Source of the DNA: Apostichopus japonicus
Lineage: Eukaryota; Echinodermata; Holothuroidea; Aspidochirotida; Stichopodidae
Direction of reading: 5' to 3'
Assembly (NCBI RefSeq): GCF_037975245.1
Contig: NC_092562.1
Coordinates: 21,841,054-21,905,053 of the forward strand
Length of the DNA: 64,000 nucleotides
Shown: piece after piece, positions 4,671 through 60,129 of the stretch
How positions within the stretch are numbered: the stretch's first letter is position 1
How the letters are laid out: each line of letters opens with the position of its first letter
Notes under the pieces: model-generated
The model's input: the letters and a program-made list of their open reading frames with translations, nothing else
Told to the model about the DNA's origin: nothing
The model's database searches: none
Program-made: the position numbers and the translations under genes

Positions 4671-4900
4671 CCTATATATATTCATTTGTTGTTTGCCTCC
4701 ATTTCATTAACCAAAGTCTTTCGAGATCCGGCTTTCGGAATCACAAATGATTTTCGAGTTGGTTAGCATCATGTTTGATCACTAGAGCAAGGCAAATACG
4801 TCAACGAAACAGAATTAGTATTGTTCGATACAGGTGACAAGCGCCTACAGTGGAATTACGACCTTCCTTACCGGTTTCGAACCTCTGCACATACAATCAG

Positions 4901-5040
4901 CGTCCATAGCCTAGTGGTTAGGGTGTCCGCGTACAAAGCGGGAAGCCCGGGTTAGAATCCCGGCGGAGGCTGGAAGTTTTTTCACTGTTCTGGATAGGTT
5001 CTATAGGTGTGTATGTATGCTATAGTACATCTGTGTCATT
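4901..5040 (+). mobile_element. tRNA-derived SINE
   Basis: A tRNA-like head begins at 4901. An A-box (TAGCCTAGTGG, 4907-4917) and a B-box (GGTTAGAATCC, 4950-4960) stand at tRNA-like spacing, with CCCGGG/CCCGG around box B forming the T-stem. After the tRNA-like part the sequence runs into a unique body (GGCTGGAAGTTTTTTCACTG...), part of which also occurs at 4594-4670. A real tRNA would end soon after the T-stem with an acceptor stem matching its 5' end, which is not convincing here. It is therefore called a SINE, transcribed by Pol III from the internal promoter. The 3' boundary is approximate. Confidence 0.72.
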
Positions 5041-21500: not shown

Positions 21501-24500
21501 GGATATGTAGCATATCACTTATACTGGGGTTGGGTATCAATAGACTTGTCCCAAGTCTCAGCAGCTCTGTATTGTATGTTATACACACATTGGACATGTA
21601 GCATATCACTTATACTGGCACTGGGTATTAATAGACTTGTCCCAAGTCTCAGAGGCTCTGTATTGTACTGTATGTTATACACTCATCGGACATGATAGCA
21701 TATCACTTATACTGGGGTTGGGTATCAATAGACTTGTCCCAAGTCTCAGCAGCTCTGTATTTTGTGTTATACACACATTGGACATGATAGCATATCACTT
21801 ATACTGGGGTTGGGTATCAATAGACTTGTCCCAAGTCTCAGCAGCTCTGTATTGAATGTTATACACACATTGTACATGATAGCATATCACTGATAATACT
21901 GGGTTGGGTATCAATAGATTTGTCCCAAGTCTCAGCAGCCCTGTATTGTATGTTATACTCTCCTCTATACTGATTGCAGTATTGGTTTATGCAGTCTCAT
22001 TTACCTGTTTGTGCTCTATATGACTTTTTAATCCCAGTCATTAGCAATAATTATTTCTTCTTGCCCCAATTTCTGGGTTAGAGATAGCTTTCCAGCTTCT
22101 TTCAGATGAATATCCACTGTTTGTGTTTTTCAATGACTAATCAATCTAATGATTAAAGAATACCTTACAAGTGTATCTATAAATCTGTTCTTTGTCTTCT
22201 TGAAAAGGTGACCTAATCCTTACATCCATGACCCTGTCCCTGCGTTTTATTCCACCCTGTTCTCATAAACCCTCTTATGCCAACGCTGCTCAGTAACGAC
22301 CATGTGATGTTTAGAATTGTGTCCAAATAAAAAGCAGAAAAAGATTCCAAAATGTATTGCTTGTTTTTCTTAGACAACATTCCAGTGTAAATGCAAGGGA
22401 CGAAATAACTGGGTTCGCATAGCAATTTGCTACCCAAGAATTGCCAGTTGCTAATCAATATTACTTTTGATTAGCAAAAGATGCAGTACCTGCTAATGCT
22501 AATTGCTATTTCCAAGAATTGTCGAGCAATTATTGCTAATCAATTCTCTAAAACTATTTCGTCCCTTGAAATGGTATGACCAAGTTTTCATCAATCAGTG
22601 GTCAAAATTAGAGAGTAAAAATGGTAATTTCTGCATAGATTCAATGATTGTCTCATGATACAATAGAAGTAGGGTAAACATTTTAAAGAAGGGCAAATAT
22701 CAAGGGTAAGACTAATCTTTAAATAACCTGTCTGTAACCTCTTTTCATATTTGTGTCATGCTTCATTGGTTGCATTTATAACAGCGACAATGGAGTGTAT
22801 TCTATTTTTCTACGCCCCTTCAAAGCTCGTTGAAAATTCGTTTCTGGGAACTTGAGGTTCTGAAAGCATTATTTGGAGATCTGTCAAAAACTATTAAAAT
22901 TGAAGTATTGTTGTAACAAACATGTTTGATGATTAGATTGTTCAGGACAAGGTTTCATGTCGTGCAGAAACCCTTTAAATTAGGTATTTTTTAATACCAA
23001 ATTAATTTATTTTACCTTTACTTGGGGATAAGCATATTTGAAGATGAAAGACTAAATTTGAAGACTGGAAGAAAAGTTAGGTTGCACATTTATGACCCAT
23101 GATTTGGATGGTTTGATTGACTTCCGTAAACCTACATTGATTTGTGCAACCCCATGATTTGGTAGACTGCTGCAGTAGACTACACTGGTTTGAGTCAAGA
23201 GTCCAGCCTTAAAGTGGAAGGTCAGTTCCATCTCTCCTGCCTGAATGAATAATGTTTCACATCTGAGGTCCTCGTCAGAAGATTTCACTTGTTTCAGACT
23301 TCGTTGAGACACATAAACATTACCTCCCCCTCCTCTGTCCCTCACTGACCAAATTCCTGGTAAAACTGCTCTCTATTTAACATTTAGTTTACACAAGGGT
23401 TAAATCGTGTGTTGATATTCGTATGGTTTCCTCTTTTCTAGGTATTTTGCAATTCACAAACATTCATGTGGTGAAATTTGGGCATATTGACACAGACTGA
23501 AATCCATATCTTTGTTGATTTTTCATGTGCTTTTATTCCTTAATCACACTGTGCCAAGACTACATCAACATTTTAATTTCAAATTCCCCTCAAGCAGGAA
23601 ATTCTAATCGGATATCATTCATGACATTTTTGGTCGAATGTTTTGAGAACAAGTATTGCCAACAACAGTATGATTTAGACCTGACTACCAGCCATGCATA
23701 GTCTTCAGATGTACATATGAGTGTTACATCATTTCTGAGATACTTTTGAACAAGTAACTAAAAAGAGAAAATAAAAAAAAATCAAAAAGCTTTATTGAAT
23801 GGACGATTGATATCATCCAAACTATTTGGTGTGTAGTTTCAGTTGCAACTAAAATGGAAAGAAATTTATGATTTTGGTTTGATCAAAAGAACTTGTGAAT
23901 TTCCTGAAATGACTGAGTATGTTGTAGAACAATGTATTTGAGACTGTATCAGTGACTATATTTACTAGATTTTCCAAATGCAGAGCTCAGGTTCTTATTT
24001 CCCCTTGAAGAACCCTGCTTAGTAATAATATTGTGAAAAAATAATGTGAAGAAAATGAGATTTAAGAAGATGTTTAGGAACTGATCAAGTGAGTCCAGAG
24101 AAATAAGATCTACTAGAAGTGAGTTCCACAAACAGGGGGCAGCATTTCGAAAGCTGTGATCCCCTATCGGATTCAAATGAGACACAGGAACAATGAGCTG
24201 GTTAAGATATTGTGATTTAGATGGCCTATTTTTAGTTTGTTGATGGAAGATATCACATAAAATACTTAAAGGCATTTAGCTACAACTATGACAATGTCAG
24301 GCAGGAACACATCCTACATTCCAGTGACACTTCCTACAGTCCTACATTGACACGCCCTACACATCCTACAGTGAACATGTCCTACACATCCTACAGTGAA
24401 CATGTCCTACACATCCTACAGTCTTACACATCCTACAGGGAACATGTCCTACAAATCCTACACACCCTACAGACCTACACATCCTACAGTGAACATGTCC

Positions 24501-27500
24501 TACACATCCTACAGTCTTACACATCCTACAGGGAACATGTCCTATAAATCCTACACACCCTACAGTCCTACACATCCTACAGTGAACATGTCCTACACAT
24601 CCTACAATCTTACACATGCTTACACATCCTACAGGGAACATGTCCTACACATCCTACAGTCTTACACATCCTACAGTGAACATGACCTACACATCCTAAA
24701 GTCTTACACATCCTACAGTGAACATGTCCTACACATCCTACACACCCTACAGTCCTACACATCCTACAGTGAACATGTCCTACACATCCTACAATCTTAC
24801 ACATCCTACAGGGAACATGTCCTACACTTCCTACAGTCTTACACATCCTACAGTGAACATGACCTACACATCCTAAAGTCTTACACATCCTACAGTGAAC
24901 ATGTCCTACACATCCTACACACCCTACAGTCCTACACATCCTACAGTGAACATGTCCTACACATCCTACAGTCCTACACATCCTACAGTGAACATGTCCT
25001 ACACATCCTACATACCCTACAGTCCTACACATCCTACAGTGAACATGTCCTACACATCCTACAGTCTTACACATCCTACAGTGAACATGACCTACACATC
25101 CTAAAGTCTTACACATCCTACAGTGAACATGTCCTACACACCCTACAGTCATACACATCCTACAGTGAACATGTCCTACACATCCTACAGTCCTACACAT
25201 CCTACAGTGACATGTCCTACACATCCTACAGTGAACATGTCCTATAAATCCTACACACCCTACAGTCCTACACATCCTACAGTGAACATGTCCTACACAT
25301 CCTACAGTCCTACACATCCTACAGTGAACATGCCCTACACATCCTACAGTCCTACACATCCTACAGTGAACATGTCCTACACATCCTACAGTCTTACACA
25401 TCCTACAGTGAACATGACCTACACATCCTAAAGTCTTACACATCCTACAGTGAACATGTCCTACACATCCTACACACCCTACAGTCCTACACATCCTACA
25501 GTAAACATGTCCTACACATCCTACAGTGACACGTCCTACACATCCTACAGTCTTACACATCCTACAGTGACATATCCTACAGTGACACACCCTACACATC
25601 CTACAAGTCCTACAGTCCTACACATCCTACAGTGAACATGTCCTACATTCCAGTGACAAAAAGTGTAATCTTGCAGAGAGTTAGTGGAGACGTTACAGCA
25701 ATTTACTTTATTGTTACTTGTTGTTTGGCCACCCAAAAAGTACAAACTGTACTTTATAATTCCTAATTTTTTCTCACAAAGAAAGAAAAACCCTCAGAAA
25801 TGAATGAAAGGCTCCAATGTTGTCTTCTATAAAAGAACAAACCAAAAGTATAGAAAACATATCACGATGATGGAAATCAGAAATAAAAGCCCCAAATTCT
25901 GCATTAGAAGAAGCTGGTTTCGTCTCGTGGAAATTGTTTCTCTTCATGTTAAATCTTTACCACAAAATGTGTTATTTTATTGACATATTGACATTAACAT
26001 AACTGATTGGGAGACGATTTTATGAAGGGAGAGAGGGAGGGGGGGGGGGGTGAGGGAGGGGAGAGGAGAGAGGAGGTGGGGTTGGTGGTGGAGACATAAT
26101 CCTTCAACTGTTTTTATGCGGGGTGTTGAAATTGCCATCCTCCCCCTCTCCCTAGTTCCCCCCTCCCCTCTTCTCCCCTCCCGCATTGTGGTGTCCTACA
26201 TATTCTACAATATTCACATTCAGGTCTGCATTAGCATTGCTTCTGCTGTGGACACATTTTGCTTGAACTGCAAATCTTTTGATATATTGTACTATGTGAT
26301 GAACAATTAACAAATGATTCTCAAAGTGGTAATATAAAACCAGACAGAATAAAATGGGTCACTGGTTGGAATCATATTCTAGCTGTAAAATTGTTTGCTC
26401 TTTTCCCTGTCAGTGTTCAGTTAATATAAGACAAAGATAAATGTCAGCAGTCAATTGGTTTCCGGGAAGCTGAAAGTGAGGTGTAAACTGTGAAGATAAG
26501 TGATGACTGGTGACATCTGGTACAACCAATCTGACATACTTGTGAACTCGGAAGCTCGTAATGACTAGCATCATTTCAGTTTTCAAGTTCAGGGAGTCAA
26601 TAATGACTTTAAATTATGGCAAAATGCCACAAAATTTTGCCTGAATTTGTCAGTCTTAGAATTGTTTGGCATATGGAGTAAAATTTAATGGTTAAACTTG
26701 ATCAACCAATTGGCCTTCAAAGCAATGTCCCTCTTTGCGACGTGTCTTTCTTCTGTTCAACACTCATTAATATATGACACAACTTGTGTTGATGAAGTAC
26801 CTTCCTGTAAAATAACTTTGAAAAACCGTTAGCAACTGTTTAGTAATTTCTTGGTTGAAATTGACCTTTAACTTTTAATGGAACAAAAAGTTACATATGT
26901 ATAGACATGCTGCAGTACAACAAAACTCAAACACAGGTAAATCCCATACTCTGTCCACCCCCTATTACCCTCCTCCCTCTTGCCCTCCTGCCTCCTCCTC
27001 CCCTCCCCCTCCTCCCCTCCCCCTCCTTCCCCTCCCCCTTGTTCCCAATCATTATGTGGACTATCATCTTTAATTGATCAAATGACCTTCATTTCTTTTG
27101 GAAAATTAACTTTAAGGACAAAATTAGCTGAACATTTCAATGAAATACATGGTGTTCTTGTGTTATTGGAGTATACAGATTCAGTTGTTATAGAAAGATT
27201 TGGCAACTGTGTTAATACCCCATGGCTCCTAGTACTCTATATTATATACACACTGGTTTGGTCCATTTTACAGTTCATAGGTTATTCCTAGTTATGAGTA
27301 AACACGGTGTATTGTTATTTGTTTCCTTTGTTTTAATAGAAAAAACGAGGAAGAGCCAAGTGGTTTCATTGATACCGACTCGGTTCGCTGGATTTGCTCA
27401 AAATTGGTATTTGAAAGCAAGCCAAGAATTTGGTTGTCTCATTATGATGATGAAAAGAAGGGGGAAGAAAACCCTATTTACCGTTTAAATTTCACAGAAA

Positions 27501-54292: not shown

Positions 54293-54298
54293 TTTATT
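54293..54298 (-). terminator. Poly(A) signal of the selenoprotein P-like gene
   Basis: AATAAA on the minus strand, about 70 nt downstream of the SECIS element at 54365-54437. It is the expected order for a selenoprotein 3' UTR (SECIS, then poly(A) signal). Confidence 0.65.
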
Positions 54299-54364
54299 TA
54301 TACACCATTGTAGCTGGAAATCTATTCACATCAAAGGATTGTATTTGTAAATTTAGCTCGCGTA

Positions 54365-54437
54365 GATGCTGGCTCATTTAGTCGAGTACACCCTGGCCTG
54401 TGGTACTAGGTTTAAAGGGAGACCGTCATTAAGCATT
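54365..54437 (-). promoter_or_regulatory. SECIS element 1 (selenocysteine insertion)
   Basis: Minus-strand RNA. The 5' quartet strand is ATGAC (54429-54425), then 11 nt (GGTCTCCCTTT), then an unpaired AAA, a mini-stem CCT...AGG, the return strand AGGGTGTACT and the 3' quartet strand CGAC (54384-54381). Helix II pairs CCCT with AGGG, then GGT with ACT via small mismatches; G-A/A-G pairs form the quartet. Below, GCTTA can pair with TGAGC. The extra mini-helix makes it a form 2 SECIS. It lies 2 kb downstream of the TGA-containing gene on the same strand, and a second copy at 63285 keeps the fold with compensating changes. Confidence 0.87.
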
Positions 54438-54440
54438 ATT

Positions 54441-54767
54441 ACGAGAAAAATATACAGAATCGGTTGATGAAGAGATTTGGCAACACTTGTAAATAAAATG
54501 AGAAAAGGCATAGCTAATTGCCCAATGCTGTAAACAATTATGAAGTACAATCTAATCTACACATAAGCAGAAGACTGTTTAAGGCTTAATTGTCGAAATG
54601 AAAAACGAGAAAAATTATATAAAATCGGTCGATGATGGAAAGATTTGGCATCAGTTGTAAATAAAAATGAAAAGGCATAGTTAATTTTTCAATACTGTTA
54701 ACAATTATAAAGTACAATCTAATCTACAAATAAGCAGATGAATGTTAAAGGCTTAATTGTCGAAATG
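54441..54767. repeat. Tandem direct duplication, 2 x ~160 bp
   Basis: Copies at 54441-54600 and 54605-54767 both start ACGAGAAAAAT, share AATCGGT, AGATTTGGCA, TTGTAAATAAAA, AAAAGGCATAG, AAGTACAATCTAATCTAC, and both end GCTTAATTGTCGAAATG, with about 15% difference. They lie directly upstream of SECIS 1 on the transcript, so part may be 3' UTR or the last intron. Confidence 0.9.
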
Positions 54768-56368
54768 AAAAAAAAAAAAATCTTTAGAGCAAGATCACGC
54801 AATATTAATAGGTCACTCGAAGGTAATTAAAGGGAACACAACTACAAAAAAAAACAAAAAACAATCGCCTCTGAATATCTCGACTATAGTCCAACATATG
54901 ATTGTTGAATTAAAGGTAGAGATGTTTTTTTCTAGATAAATCCTTTGTTACTTCAGGATAGGATATTCATGGCAGGTATATGACGTCATCATACCCTACG
55001 TTCTCTTAACAATACCTTGAAAGGCACTGTAATAATGTCTTCTTCGTATAAACCTTAATACGTTTGAAGATAATGTTCAGCTCTGACTGTTCTCTACGCT
55101 GGGCTAATAATTTCGTCAAAATGCTAAAATGGAAGTATATTACCTGGCAATATGGATAAACGATTGTACACAGTGTAAAGAAGGATACATAGTGTGAGCT
55201 CTATGGCCAAAAATGATGACGTCATTTACTCTGATGTTGCCAGCTGCATTCGTAAATTTATGAAGCTGAAAATTCAATATGATTGAAATAACACATGCTT
55301 TTTATGATGTGATCCTCCGTTAATAACCTGCTTTCCACCCCATCCTGATACTCTTTTAATGCTTTTATGAGGGAGTCGGAGTGGTGGTGGTGAGGGAAGG
55401 GGGGGGGGACGAGGAGGTTAAAGGGGTAGATAAATGTTCACTTACTTTCAGTTAATAGGCAGTGTAGGAAGTTCCTAAGACTGTTAAAACTATTGTTCAG
55501 AGTCGGTACCTAGGATTTATCAAAACCTATGATAATTCCAGATGTATGGTTTCGAAACTTTTGGAACAAATCGAGGAGAGGGGAAAGAGAGCAAAGTAAC
55601 CTCTTTAAAAACGAGTTTACAAAATTGGTGAGCGCCTATGGGTGTCAATACAGATAAACAATTGTGTGTTTACTTTGTTACTTTGGTGTTTACTCCGAGT
55701 TAATTTTCATGTAGCTGCAAACTTGATTCGGAAAGGAGACGGTAATCACGTGACGATGACGACGAGTTATCAAATGCTGGTTTACTATCACATATTTATC
55801 TGCAATGCAATCAGAAATAAGTATCTGAGGAAGATATGCGAGAAAAGAAAGACTTAGACATTTTTATATTACAAGTATGGAACGATTTCCTTATATATAA
55901 GTGAAGGCTTCTATGTTCTATGTCATTACACCATGGGGCATTCACGTATACGTGTGGATAAGTATACGATTAAATCATTGGATAATTACGTTAATTATAT
56001 GATAACGACCGGTAATTATCCTCAACTGATAATTATAATTGATTCAAAAGAGTAAGGTTACTTACTTGGGTGGAATGTATGATTATGAATATTAATCGTT
56101 ATGCCATTTTTCACTGAATGACGTCATGGCGCATTGTGCCACGTTGATGTTACTAAGGTTACCATCTGTCGACGATGTCTGTGTACATATAGCCTATACA
56201 AATGTCACAAGTTGGATCTATCGTCTGCTCAAATTGTGCACACATTCACATGTTGTACTGCCAAGTGACTGAAGTCATCTATTAGTAATTGTGTTTGATA
56301 TACAGTAATAACGTTGTAAATACAACTAAATCTTACCGTTAATATTGGCTGTTCTGTGTACTTTCTTA
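54768..56368 (-). other. Probable 3' UTR intron of the selenoprotein P-like gene
   Basis: The stop codon at 56373 is followed at once by a strong donor (TAATGA|GTAAGA, GT at 56369-56368), with another (ACG|GTAAGA) at 56336. SECIS 1 lies 2 kb further on, so an intron between stop codon and SECIS exon is likely. The acceptor is not fixed; TTGTTTACAG at about 54530 is a candidate. No coding exon is seen within. Confidence 0.5.
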
Positions 56369-56372
56369 CTCA

Positions 56373-56484
56373 TTAGGTGCTGTCGCATGTACACTGACTA
56401 TTCCCTGTGATGGCGCTCCTCACTGCATTCTCAACATCACTATTGCCGTAGGGTAACCTGACACGTGTGATGAGCTGCCCACAT
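56373..56484 (-). CDS. Selenoprotein P-like gene, coding exon 3 (terminal)
   Basis: Completes the split Arg codon and encodes CGQLITRVRLPYGNSDVENA, VRSAITGNSQ and the end CTCDST, then TAA. It corresponds to RCGRLVYHLGLPFS...VEEAI in human. A CxC pair near the end may stand for the CGNC-type pair of the family. Confidence 0.9.
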
Positions 56485-59400
56485 CTGTCGGAAACAAATT
56501 TTAAGTGAAATAGGAAAATATGCCTCTGTATGTCATTATGATATTACTACATTGGCAATTTCTTGCAATGTGTCCGTATACAAACGAATTATGCCAGACA
56601 CTTATGACGCAAGATCTTGTTGAGCGCCATCTACTTTTTCCGGGGATTTATTGGAACGCGTCCTCCATTCTCCGCAAAATTACTGAGAGAATAGTTGAGG
56701 AGGGATAAAAGCGAGAGAGGTAAAAGCGAATGTCGTAATCTTCTATCATTTCGACTCGTGGAATATGTGATGATTTACGCAAAGTATTGGCCGTATAATA
56801 AAGAACATTGCACATATTTTATAAGAAAACAGTTCGCGGTTGAAATGAAAATGAAGACTTATTTTGCTATAAACTGCGTTGCTGATTTGAGAATCCAAGA
56901 TGCTATCATTTTTTTTACGACACTGCAGACAAATTAATAAAATAGAAAATAGTTTGAAGGTGTCGGAATACTGATCCTTCTACGTCATATAATGTTCCAT
57001 TATATAGTTTCAATTTCTAACTGACAAACCACAGCTTCTCTGTAGACCAACATTTAAAGGCCTTCTGCATGTTTTGTTATCTCTACGGTATATACTTTAC
57101 GTATCAAAGAGTATAACTTATGAATTCCGATCTTAGGTAAGTTGACTGTTAACATATGGGGTGCTATATAAGTGAATTCCAGGTCGGATACGATCCGAAA
57201 TTAGAAAACATTTAAAAAATAATCATAAGTTGCCTTTCTTCTTTCTTAAAGCCATCATTAAAATGACAAGAAAATATTTGCAATGGAGTAGATGTAGTAT
57301 TTCAATTTCATTTTTCTAAAGGAGGTTTTGCAGAGAGTAAAAGTGATGATGATGTCAGCCCAACTACATACCAGACTGAACGTAACTCGAGTACATTTTG
57401 CCATACTCGTACGCGTACTCTTAGGTTTGTACTCATTGGTTTGTACTTATTGGTTTGTACACATGGGTTTGTATCATTATCAGTTATGAATAATAATGGA
57501 AACATTTTAATTCATACGAACAAATTCATATATTATAGTAGGACAGTATATATCGATGCGTCCCTATGTATGAACCAACTAGTCCAACCCGGCAGATTTC
57601 ATACTAAATTGAACTATATTAATGACAACCAACGATGAACTAATTGGTTTATAATTAACTTTCTATCAGTTTTAATGAGAGATTACATTGATAACGTCAT
57701 TGTATCCTCCTTCCTGTAGCAGAATTACCTCTTACCTATCATATATAAGGACATCATCTTTTTCCCCGTCCAGTTTAGTCCAGATGTCGAGAGCATCTGT
57801 ATCTTGATAAACAGGGAAGCTGACACGTCCTTCAAGAATTGAAATGTATCTGGAGGTCCAAGAACCCTTCAAGTTTACACCCATAAATGTGACGTCAGAA
57901 TAACTTTCTCCGACAAGAGCCGATCGGAGCGATTCCAACCTATTGGATGGAGAATATTTTAATGGGAATCGAGAATATAACAATCATGGGAAAACATTAG
58001 CGATCAAGAAGCCTACTAGGTATGACTTCATTCATTGAATATTTAATTAAAAGGATGACTCTTCGCCTATACTTTTAGGTTCGCTAATTCAAACAAAAAA
58101 CAAAATAATGTTGAGGGCTGGTCACCTTATGTTCAATATCTAATATGTCTTTCGTTACAGTGATATTTAATATATATTAGATGTCTGCAATGTTCCTGCA
58201 TTCGAAACAAGCGTACTCTAAACGATAAACGCTGCGGAGTTTTAATAGAGCAAGTGTAGGAGTTGATCCATCGGTCTTGTTTGAGACTCATGAAACAAGA
58301 CTCCCACCACCACCCGCCCCCTTTTTATTACACATTCTCGTCTACAAAGGTTGTATATTAAATTTTCAGATTGAAGACATACATAACGAAAGAGTAGTGC
58401 GAAGTTACGTGCCCTATACTACTGCCAGAAGCATTCACAAAAACTAGAGCACCAATGGTGCAGAAGCTCATACCTTTTCGAGCTGAAAAATGTAGGGCCC
58501 ACAAAACCAATTTTGGGCCCATGAGGGATACCCCCCCCCCCTCCGTTAGCAGAATCCTGGCCACACCACTGGCTATATTTCCTATTTTCCCCTTTAAATC
58601 CTATTTTACCCACTCTCTCAAACAATACCACTGACCTACCCTATTAAACTTTCTCCCCTCTACCTTAGCAGACATAACTTCACAAGCACTCCCTACAAGA
58701 TATAACTTCACAAGCTGCCTACATACATCAGGCTCAAAGACTTCTAAGAATCGGCAAGTGCTGATTGGCTATAGGGCTCTCATGCTTACAGTTCAACAGT
58801 TAATAACAACTCCCAGTCCTGCTTTAATTCCACTAACAGCCTCTGCAGAGCTTAACCACAAATGTAAACAAACACTGCAGACACTGGGAGACAAATTAAA
58901 GGAGCTTTGGCAAAAAGTGAAGGCGCAGATTTTTTTAAACAATGGTGATTAATTGTAATTAACTAACTTTTGACCAAAATTTTTTAGGCATCACCTTATT
59001 CATACACAATCCAACAATCATCAGTTCAACTTTGAATATGATCCATCAAAATCTTGAGGAGATTGAGATATTTGAAAATATTACAAAGAATGACCCCCGA
59101 TGACCCCCTAAATGACATTTGACCTCAATTTTCTGAACACCCCTCGTAACTCTCATCCCGAGGAACATTGTGACCAAGTTTCATTATAATTGGCCATACA
59201 CTGTACGAACAGGAGCAATTTGAAAATATAGGGCCGCGGCCCGGGCCACAAAAGACCCCTAGTTGATCTTTGATCTCAAATTCATGAACACCCTGAAGGT
59301 AGAACTACCATAGTACTATCGTGACAAACCCTCAACATTGTACCATGGAATCTGTAGGAGAAGAAGCATTTTGCGTATTTCCACAAAATGGCCCATTACG

Positions 59401-60129
59401 GCCCACAGGTGACCTTTGACCCCAAATTTTGGACCATCTCTGATGGCCCTATACCCAATGGTCCTTGTGTCCAAGTTTCATGAAATTCCATCAAACACTG
59501 TGCGCGGCGAGTGGGAGCGGTTTTACCAATTGTTGACGGATAGAGTGATAGAGTGATAGAATGATAGAGTGATAGAGTGATAGACGCCGCACTGTAACAA
59601 TAGCTCACACCAGCATGCTGGTATGAGCTAAAAAACCCATTAAATTTGTACCTTCGCCATAAAAAAAAATACTACGAAGATGTGCATGGTTCGAACTAGA
59701 GATACAGAAAATTTCCAGTATATTTTTTGATCAGTAATCAACTTCGGCCACCGGGATATCCCTATAACACTCGAACTAAAGTATTTCCCTTGAGGGTGAT
59801 TATATACTCAAACAATAAAAGTGGTAATACTATGCAACCGTCGGAGAGAAAGGTTTCCTTTAAATTTAAAATTATCATTTGTTTTTCCTCCCTAATTCAA
59901 TCACTTCACTAACTTTTTTAAATCCAACTTACCTCGAGGATCTCCAAATACTGAAACCTCATGTGGACTTCATGAGCATGACAACCACAAAGTCACCTCT
60001 CGCAGTAACCATGGGATCGTCACCACCTGTTATGGTCCAGGTTGGAGGAAGCTGGCACTCGCCCCCAGTGTCCTGGGCATGGCTCAGGAGGGGCAACAGA
60101 GCCACCAGAAACGGTAGGAGATTCACCAT
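56373..60129 (-). CDS. Selenoprotein P-like secreted protein, one Sec (3 coding exons)
   Basis: Coding exons are 60129-59933, 57939-57736 and 56484-56373, giving 170 residues plus TAA, phases consistent. Signal peptide MVNLLPFLVALLPLLSHA, then CQLPPTWTITGGDDPM, GDFVVVMLMKST and codon 57 = TGA, followed by GFSIWRSSRLESLRSAL. This matches the selenoprotein P N-terminal thioredoxin-like domain column by column (human: CKQPPAWSI, ...ASU, then KLEDLR, GYSNISY, DDFLIYDRCG). Exons 2-3 give SYSDVTFMGVN, WTKLDGEKDDVLIYDR and CGQLITRVRLPYG. The TGA is therefore read as selenocysteine, served by the SECIS at 54365-54437. The redox motif is UxxS rather than UxxC. The His- and Sec-rich C-terminal half of selenoprotein P is absent. 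Likely an extracellular redox protein rather than a bulk selenium carrier (inference). Confidence 0.9.
57736..57939 (-). CDS. Selenoprotein P-like gene, coding exon 2
   Basis: Encodes LESLRSALVGESYSDVTFMG, then SRYISILEGRVSFPVYQDTD and WTKLDGEKDDVLIYDR, matching selenoprotein P residues after the Sec site. Acceptor CCAATAG, donor GTAAGA, phase 2. Confidence 0.93.
57940..59932 (-). other. Selenoprotein P-like gene, intron 1
   Basis: 1,993 bp, GTAAGT donor and CCAATAG acceptor. It carries the interspersed repeat at 58975-59640 and, near 58490-58575, the right end of a G/C-tract MITE (C run, then CCTGGCCACACCACTG). Otherwise no feature is seen. Confidence 0.85.
58975..59640 (+). mobile_element. 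Interspersed repeat with variable (GATAGAGT)n and palindromic end
   Basis: The sequence has the character of a non-autonomous element common in marine invertebrates: repeated GACCTTTGACCC / GACCTCAA words, CAAGTTTCATGAAATTCCAT, CACTGTGCGCGGCGAGTGGG, then GATAGAGT repeats (59538-59585), GACGCCGCACTGTAACAATA, and a 30-bp near-perfect palindrome (59601-59630, one mismatch; core CCAGCATGCTGG). The 5' limit is uncertain. A terminal hairpin followed by CTAA is compatible with a Helitron-like 3' end, but no Helitron 5' TC end is identified. Confidence 0.6.
59933..60129 (-). CDS. Selenoprotein P-like gene, coding exon 1 (signal peptide and Sec)
   Basis: Signal peptide, first Cys of the mature protein (Cys25) and the Sec codon at 59961-59959. 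Donor GTAAGT, phase 2. The ATG at 60129 is preferred over the one at 60180, since it starts directly at the signal peptide. Human selenoprotein P has its first Sec at precursor residue 59, against 57 here. Confidence 0.9.
59959..59961 (-). other. In-frame TGA read as selenocysteine (Sec57)
   Basis: The codons after the TGA stay open to the GTAAGT donor, and the frame they set is the only one that joins exon 2 in frame with the family sequence (R then LESLRSAL). The spacing from Sec to LE equals that of human selenoprotein P (U plus 9 residues). The Cys normally three residues later is Ser here (AGT). Confidence 0.88.

Follow-up and report, generated by a model that had tools for sequence, protein, structure and literature searches.

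An Apostichopus japonicus gene very probably encoding a small secreted selenocysteine protein akin to the N-terminal part of selenoprotein P

The window, the whole 64,000-nucleotide stretch of Apostichopus japonicus DNA analysed here (contig NC_092562.1, positions 21,841,054 to 21,905,053), contains a minus-strand gene that resembles selenoprotein P (SelenoP) and is crossed by an in-frame TGA. Is this gene, hereafter W, a working selenoprotein gene, and what might its product do? On our analysis, W very probably encodes a small, secreted protein that contains selenocysteine (Sec) and is akin to the N-terminal part of selenoprotein P. Its features are given below in window positions, with P denoting a tandem paralogue.

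59933-60129, minus strand: W coding exon 1, recognised by its start codon, candidate Sec codon, phase-2 donor (TCGAG/GTAAGT), frame and SelP_N match
59959-59961, minus strand: in-frame TGA, codon 57 (U57), aligned with the TGA of P (P codon 60)
59950-59952, minus strand: AGT, giving Ser at the Cys position of U-x-x-C; TGC, giving Cys, in P
57736-57939, minus strand: W coding exon 2, recognised by the joined frame and the genome SelP_N match
56373-56484, minus strand: W coding exon 3, with the C-terminal CTCDST followed by the stop TAA at 56375-56373
54362-54444, minus strand: block kept in the P 3' region, including the putative SECIS (54437-54365), with UGAC at 54428-54425, AAACC at 54413-54409 and CGAC at 54384-54381
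54293-54298, minus strand: AATAAA, the first on this strand past the stop codon, beyond the SECIS

W is a real gene, as its joined frame, its SelP_N match and its paralogue establish. Once joined, the three predicted exons give a 170-residue frame with a single TGA and a TAA stop, and both introns have GT/AG borders and lie in phase 2. Thus, the sequence-only reading, an earlier account of this DNA, had the three-exon coordinates and the length right. The Pfam profile SelP_N (PF04592) matches the W protein over residues 21-167 (121.7 bits, E 4.2e-35, cut-off 23.2). The TGA aligns with that of P and with what we take to be the first Sec of human SELENOP, in agreement with the earlier claim that it occupies the Sec position of the family. 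By profile score and Sec position W belongs to the SelP_N family, with a motif that departs from U-x-x-C. Read as a stop, the TGA truncates W at residue 56 and P at residue 59, and a gene finder would end there, as had been predicted. The W protein contains four Cys (25, 135, 165 and 167), a single His (residue 17) and no N-glycosylation sequon; its N-terminus is hydrophobic and, judged by eye, a likely signal peptide.

P was located by a SelP_N profile search of the genome. It occupies C2:21906795-21905667, just past the window end (21905053), about 5 kb from W on the same strand.

C2:21906795-21906590, 21906328-21906125 and 21905841-21905667 (stop included), strand of W: P exons

The P frame is 194 residues long, with its only TGA at codon 60; exon plan and phase are as in W, and the SelP_N score, 142 bits, exceeds that of W. 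The P motif reads UGFC and that of W UGFS. P contains three His and five Cys and, like W, lacks a sequon; the two proteins are 51% identical over 151 residues. The compact one-TGA SelenoP-like gene with a putative SECIS described earlier is supported, while that description overlooked both the Ser in the motif and the tandem copy, which lies beyond the window. One AATAAA of P is found 47 bases past its stop (21905620-21905615), before the SECIS, and a second after it (21904196-21904191); if the first is used, the mRNA would lack the SECIS and the TGA could not be read as Sec.

Across the whole genome (671.6 Mb, 35 contigs), SelP_N gave four matches, namely W exon 2 and the three P exons. Protein searches of the genome with P and with W listed six matches each, every one a W or P exon. 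The genome apparently holds two SelenoP genes, neither of them Sec-rich, within the limits of these searches (gaps, masked stretches, exon-by-exon matching). A search of solved structures returned three matches for W (E 0.54 to 0.79), which we took as chance, and none for the P protein.

Is the stretch beyond the TGA coding? Over the 113 codons past the TGA, W and P differ 42, 27 and 71 times at codon positions 1, 2 and 3 (chi-square p 2.2e-5), and over all 170 codons 62, 38 and 102 times. Between them dN is 0.36 and dS is saturated and not computable; from two sequences, dN/dS is in any case not lineage-specific. With the human protein as the third sequence, 21 changes are specific to W and 15 to P (p 0.41), so W is not visibly decaying faster than P. 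As far as sequence can tell, both W and P look maintained, and a tandem copy that shares exon plan and TGA, and whose SECIS block is 87% identical, is more than chance.

Comparison of the two 3' regions gave a single alignment at E<=1e-3, the SECIS block, in which 72 of 83 positions are identical (W 54444-54362, P 21904415-21904335; E 5.6e-22). When the whole gene regions were compared, exon 2 alone aligned as nucleotides besides this block (67%), and the W block, used as a nucleotide query against the genome, hit nothing besides itself and its counterpart in P. The proximity of the copies on one strand might suggest recent gene conversion between them as the source of this likeness, and not long constraint. 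However, the alignable tract is only 83 bases long and is bounded by helix I, its flanks are unalignable, and conversion would copy a SECIS anyway. We consider this explanation very improbable.

How good is the W element on its own terms? The Rfam model SECIS_1 gave it 13.1 bits (E 5.9, with 121 bases given) against a cut-off of 35. A score below threshold had been set beforehand as refuting, and on this check the earlier proposal fell short. In our view, homology to the P element, which scores 28.8 bits (E 2.9e-4 in 121 bases) and is also below the cut-off, rescues the W SECIS despite the failed threshold. The element first proposed thus owes its standing to homology and not to its own score, and is probably weaker than that of P. 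The putative poly(A) signal lies 3' of the SECIS on the same strand, as stated earlier. At gathering thresholds, Rfam reported for the whole window a tRNA alone (plus strand, 4900-4971, 46.5 bits) and no SECIS; at E<=10 over 7.5 kb, SECIS_1 was not listed, and it appeared only with the 121-base input. Genome-wide, where 150 of 13789 candidates were scored, seven SECIS_1 matches were listed, with P sixth and W absent. Three of the matches that outscore P share one repeat (94.9% and 97.2% identical, ~2 kb), and the model is consequently not discriminating at genome scale.

The folds differ as well. The P SECIS folds with all 19 pairs at a minimum energy of -21.3 kcal/mol, and 9 of 200 shuffles fold as well. 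The minimum-energy fold of the W block differs from the SECIS fold (-13.6 vs -8.5 kcal/mol) and is no more stable than that of shuffled sequence, 139 of 200 shuffles being as stable or more so. Of the 19 base pairs in the P structure, 16 survive in W, and 27% of 20,000 random mutants do as well; the idea that substitutions in W spare SECIS base pairs therefore failed. The core letters UGAC, AAACC and CGAC are all retained in W, as they are in 8.9% of random mutants. TGAG, which the sequence-only reading took for the 3' core, reads AGAG in P, and CGAC is kept in both genes; thus, CGAC is more likely to pair with the 5' UGAC.

These results bear on whether W is decaying or regulatory, its SECIS weakened and TGA 57 mostly a stop, with P as the sole working selenoprotein. 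The frame is open, the splice sites are intact, the differences past the TGA follow codon structure and W-specific changes are not in excess, all of which argues against this; the retained core letters do so too, though random mutants sometimes retain them. The weak score and fold of the W SECIS, the loss of the motif Cys and a SelP_N score below that of P would fit decay, which on balance we regard as unlikely. We favour with good confidence the reading in which W is one of two tandem SelenoP genes reduced to the N-terminal domain, its TGA read as Sec and its product secreted and redox-active.

A full-length SelPa or SELENOP has a Sec-rich C-terminal part, which W lacks, its TAA lying in exon 3. 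Could such a part be encoded further downstream? Frames open when TGA is read, from exon 3 to the SECIS, were listed from at least 30 codons and compared from at least 15. Between exon 3 and the SECIS of W and P we found no convincing Sec-rich exon and one weak hint, a 14-base word with a TGA that W (55443-55430) and P (21904687-21904674) share away from the SECIS, a length attained in 5 of 300 shuffles. The frames holding the word are open if TGA is read (83 codons with one TGA in W; 76 codons with three TGA, two of them after Cys, in P), and the best match between frames other than exon 3 spans 15 residues at 67% (E 0.002 for one query, uncorrected for many queries). This might mark a hidden last exon with more Sec codons, joined by alternative splicing from a point ahead of the exon 3 stop and yielding a longer SelenoP. 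Yet the likeness ends abruptly, a few residues beyond the shared TGA; the word lies about 1.0 kb from the SECIS in W and 0.27 kb in P; by eye, no exon 3 donor common to both genes was seen; and the remaining listed frames are not Sec-rich. We judge a hidden exon quite unlikely and treat the shared word as a weak loose end. The earlier statement that the Sec-rich half is missing thus stands in that no convincing exon emerged, and is qualified by the 15-residue hint. PF04593 gave no match in the genome, and the controls likewise gave none.

Our model for the tandem N-terminal-domain pair starts from what is observed, namely the anatomy of the gene, its family, its one TGA, the SECIS block kept in both copies and the constraint past the TGA; from these we predict Sec readthrough, secretion and Sec nucleophile chemistry. 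The ribosome would decode TGA 57 as Sec via the 3' UTR SECIS, with the weaker element of W suggesting a lower output, and the likely signal peptide would export the protein from the cell. In the thioredoxin-like domain, the lone Sec may be the nucleophile that attacks peroxides or mixed disulfides. We hypothesize that in P the Cys of U-x-x-C is able to resolve the selenenyl intermediate, and that in W, which has Ser instead, resolution would fall to a low-molecular-weight thiol, a second protein or a Cys farther away. Lacking the resolving Cys, W could not run a thioredoxin-like U/C cycle within the motif. The N-terminal domain of mammalian SelP is reported to act as a peroxidase once it is reduced via thioredoxin reductase (PMC5133445). 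For W, the label 'secreted redox enzyme' that the earlier account had suggested remains an inference. With one Sec and no Sec-rich or His-rich part, W does not qualify as a human-type selenium carrier.

One-Sec forms of SelenoP are already on record in vertebrate SelPb (including that of fish) and amphioxus Bf.SelP_a, and the W type is therefore not new, although its active site is derived. Zebrafish SelPa is reported to have 17 Sec and SelPb one, with a His-rich region in both vertebrate forms (PMC2397514); for SelPb a single UGA and a single SECIS are described, along with the proposal of a parental gene consisting of the N-terminal domain only (PMC5133445). SelPb (Sepp1b) is like W in its one UGA, one SECIS (putative in W), N-terminal SelP domain and lack of a Sec-rich tail. 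It differs in having a His-rich region and in being longer (279 residues in trout; PMC6301783), whereas W has 170 residues, no His past residue 17 and U-x-x-S. W thus shares the single UGA of SelPb and not its His-rich region (one His in W, three in P), and since SelPb is reported as vertebrate-specific (PMC3316567) we do not assign W as its orthologue.

In amphioxus, a one-Sec SelP lies in tandem with a three-domain SelP (PMC3473315). Bf.SelP_a is like W in its one Sec, N-terminal domain, tandem arrangement with 3NSelP and three-exon domain plan, and unlike W in carrying a His-rich region and a pair of SECIS elements. The adjacent 3NSelP comprises three domains with five Sec, whereas each gene of the present pair encodes a single domain with a single Sec. 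Sea urchin selenoprotein P, likewise from an echinoderm, shares the conserved SelP N-terminal domain and is reported to contain 28 Sec (PMC2397514), borne on a Sec-rich tail, against one each in W and P. An independent origin has been suggested for that tail (PMC5133445), and Sec content in invertebrates is described as varying widely (PMC8744743).

Two points stand out: the resolving Cys is missing from W, and an echinoderm apparently has no Sec-rich SelenoP. Among the echinoderm SelP papers listed in our searches we found no description of W; Baclaocos et al. 2019, the main survey of metazoan SelenoP, lies outside this set and may include such genes. More tentatively, and at somewhat less than an even chance, this echinoderm may have no Sec-rich SelenoP at all, with the tail-less one-Sec P, a U-x-x-C enzyme, and W, resolved by outside thiols, splitting roles. 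Some other factor would then have to transport selenium. An echinoderm whose detectable SelenoP genes both lack the tail helps to date when the Sec-rich transport part was acquired or lost, and W and P offer a natural test of the role of the U-x-x-C Cys.

Turning to the Sec machinery of this genome, SepSecS is present, in three stretches. Nine GPx-family matches were obtained, four with an in-frame TGA; two of the four are strong (E 3.4e-21 and 4.6e-18) and two near threshold, one of the latter also having a TAA. The tRNA-Sec model RF01852 gave 13 matches, all under its cut-off, and its control matched in 14 of 14 genomes, so this search is uninformative.

Elsewhere in the genome, C29:14745-31219 holds several COX1 pieces with in-frame TGA, besides an intact COX1 on C35; they are perhaps fragmented mitochondrial DNA on another contig. 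The mitochondrial COX1 on C35 is open under genetic codes 9 and 5; under table 9, where AAA = Asn, Asn returns at sites conserved across animals, such as STNHKDIG, and an echinoderm host is thus the most likely. Within the window, positions 24396-25599 carry long frames on either strand, built from short repeats (on the minus strand, for example, HVHCRMCRTVGCVG), which by eye form a tandem-repeat array and not a gene.
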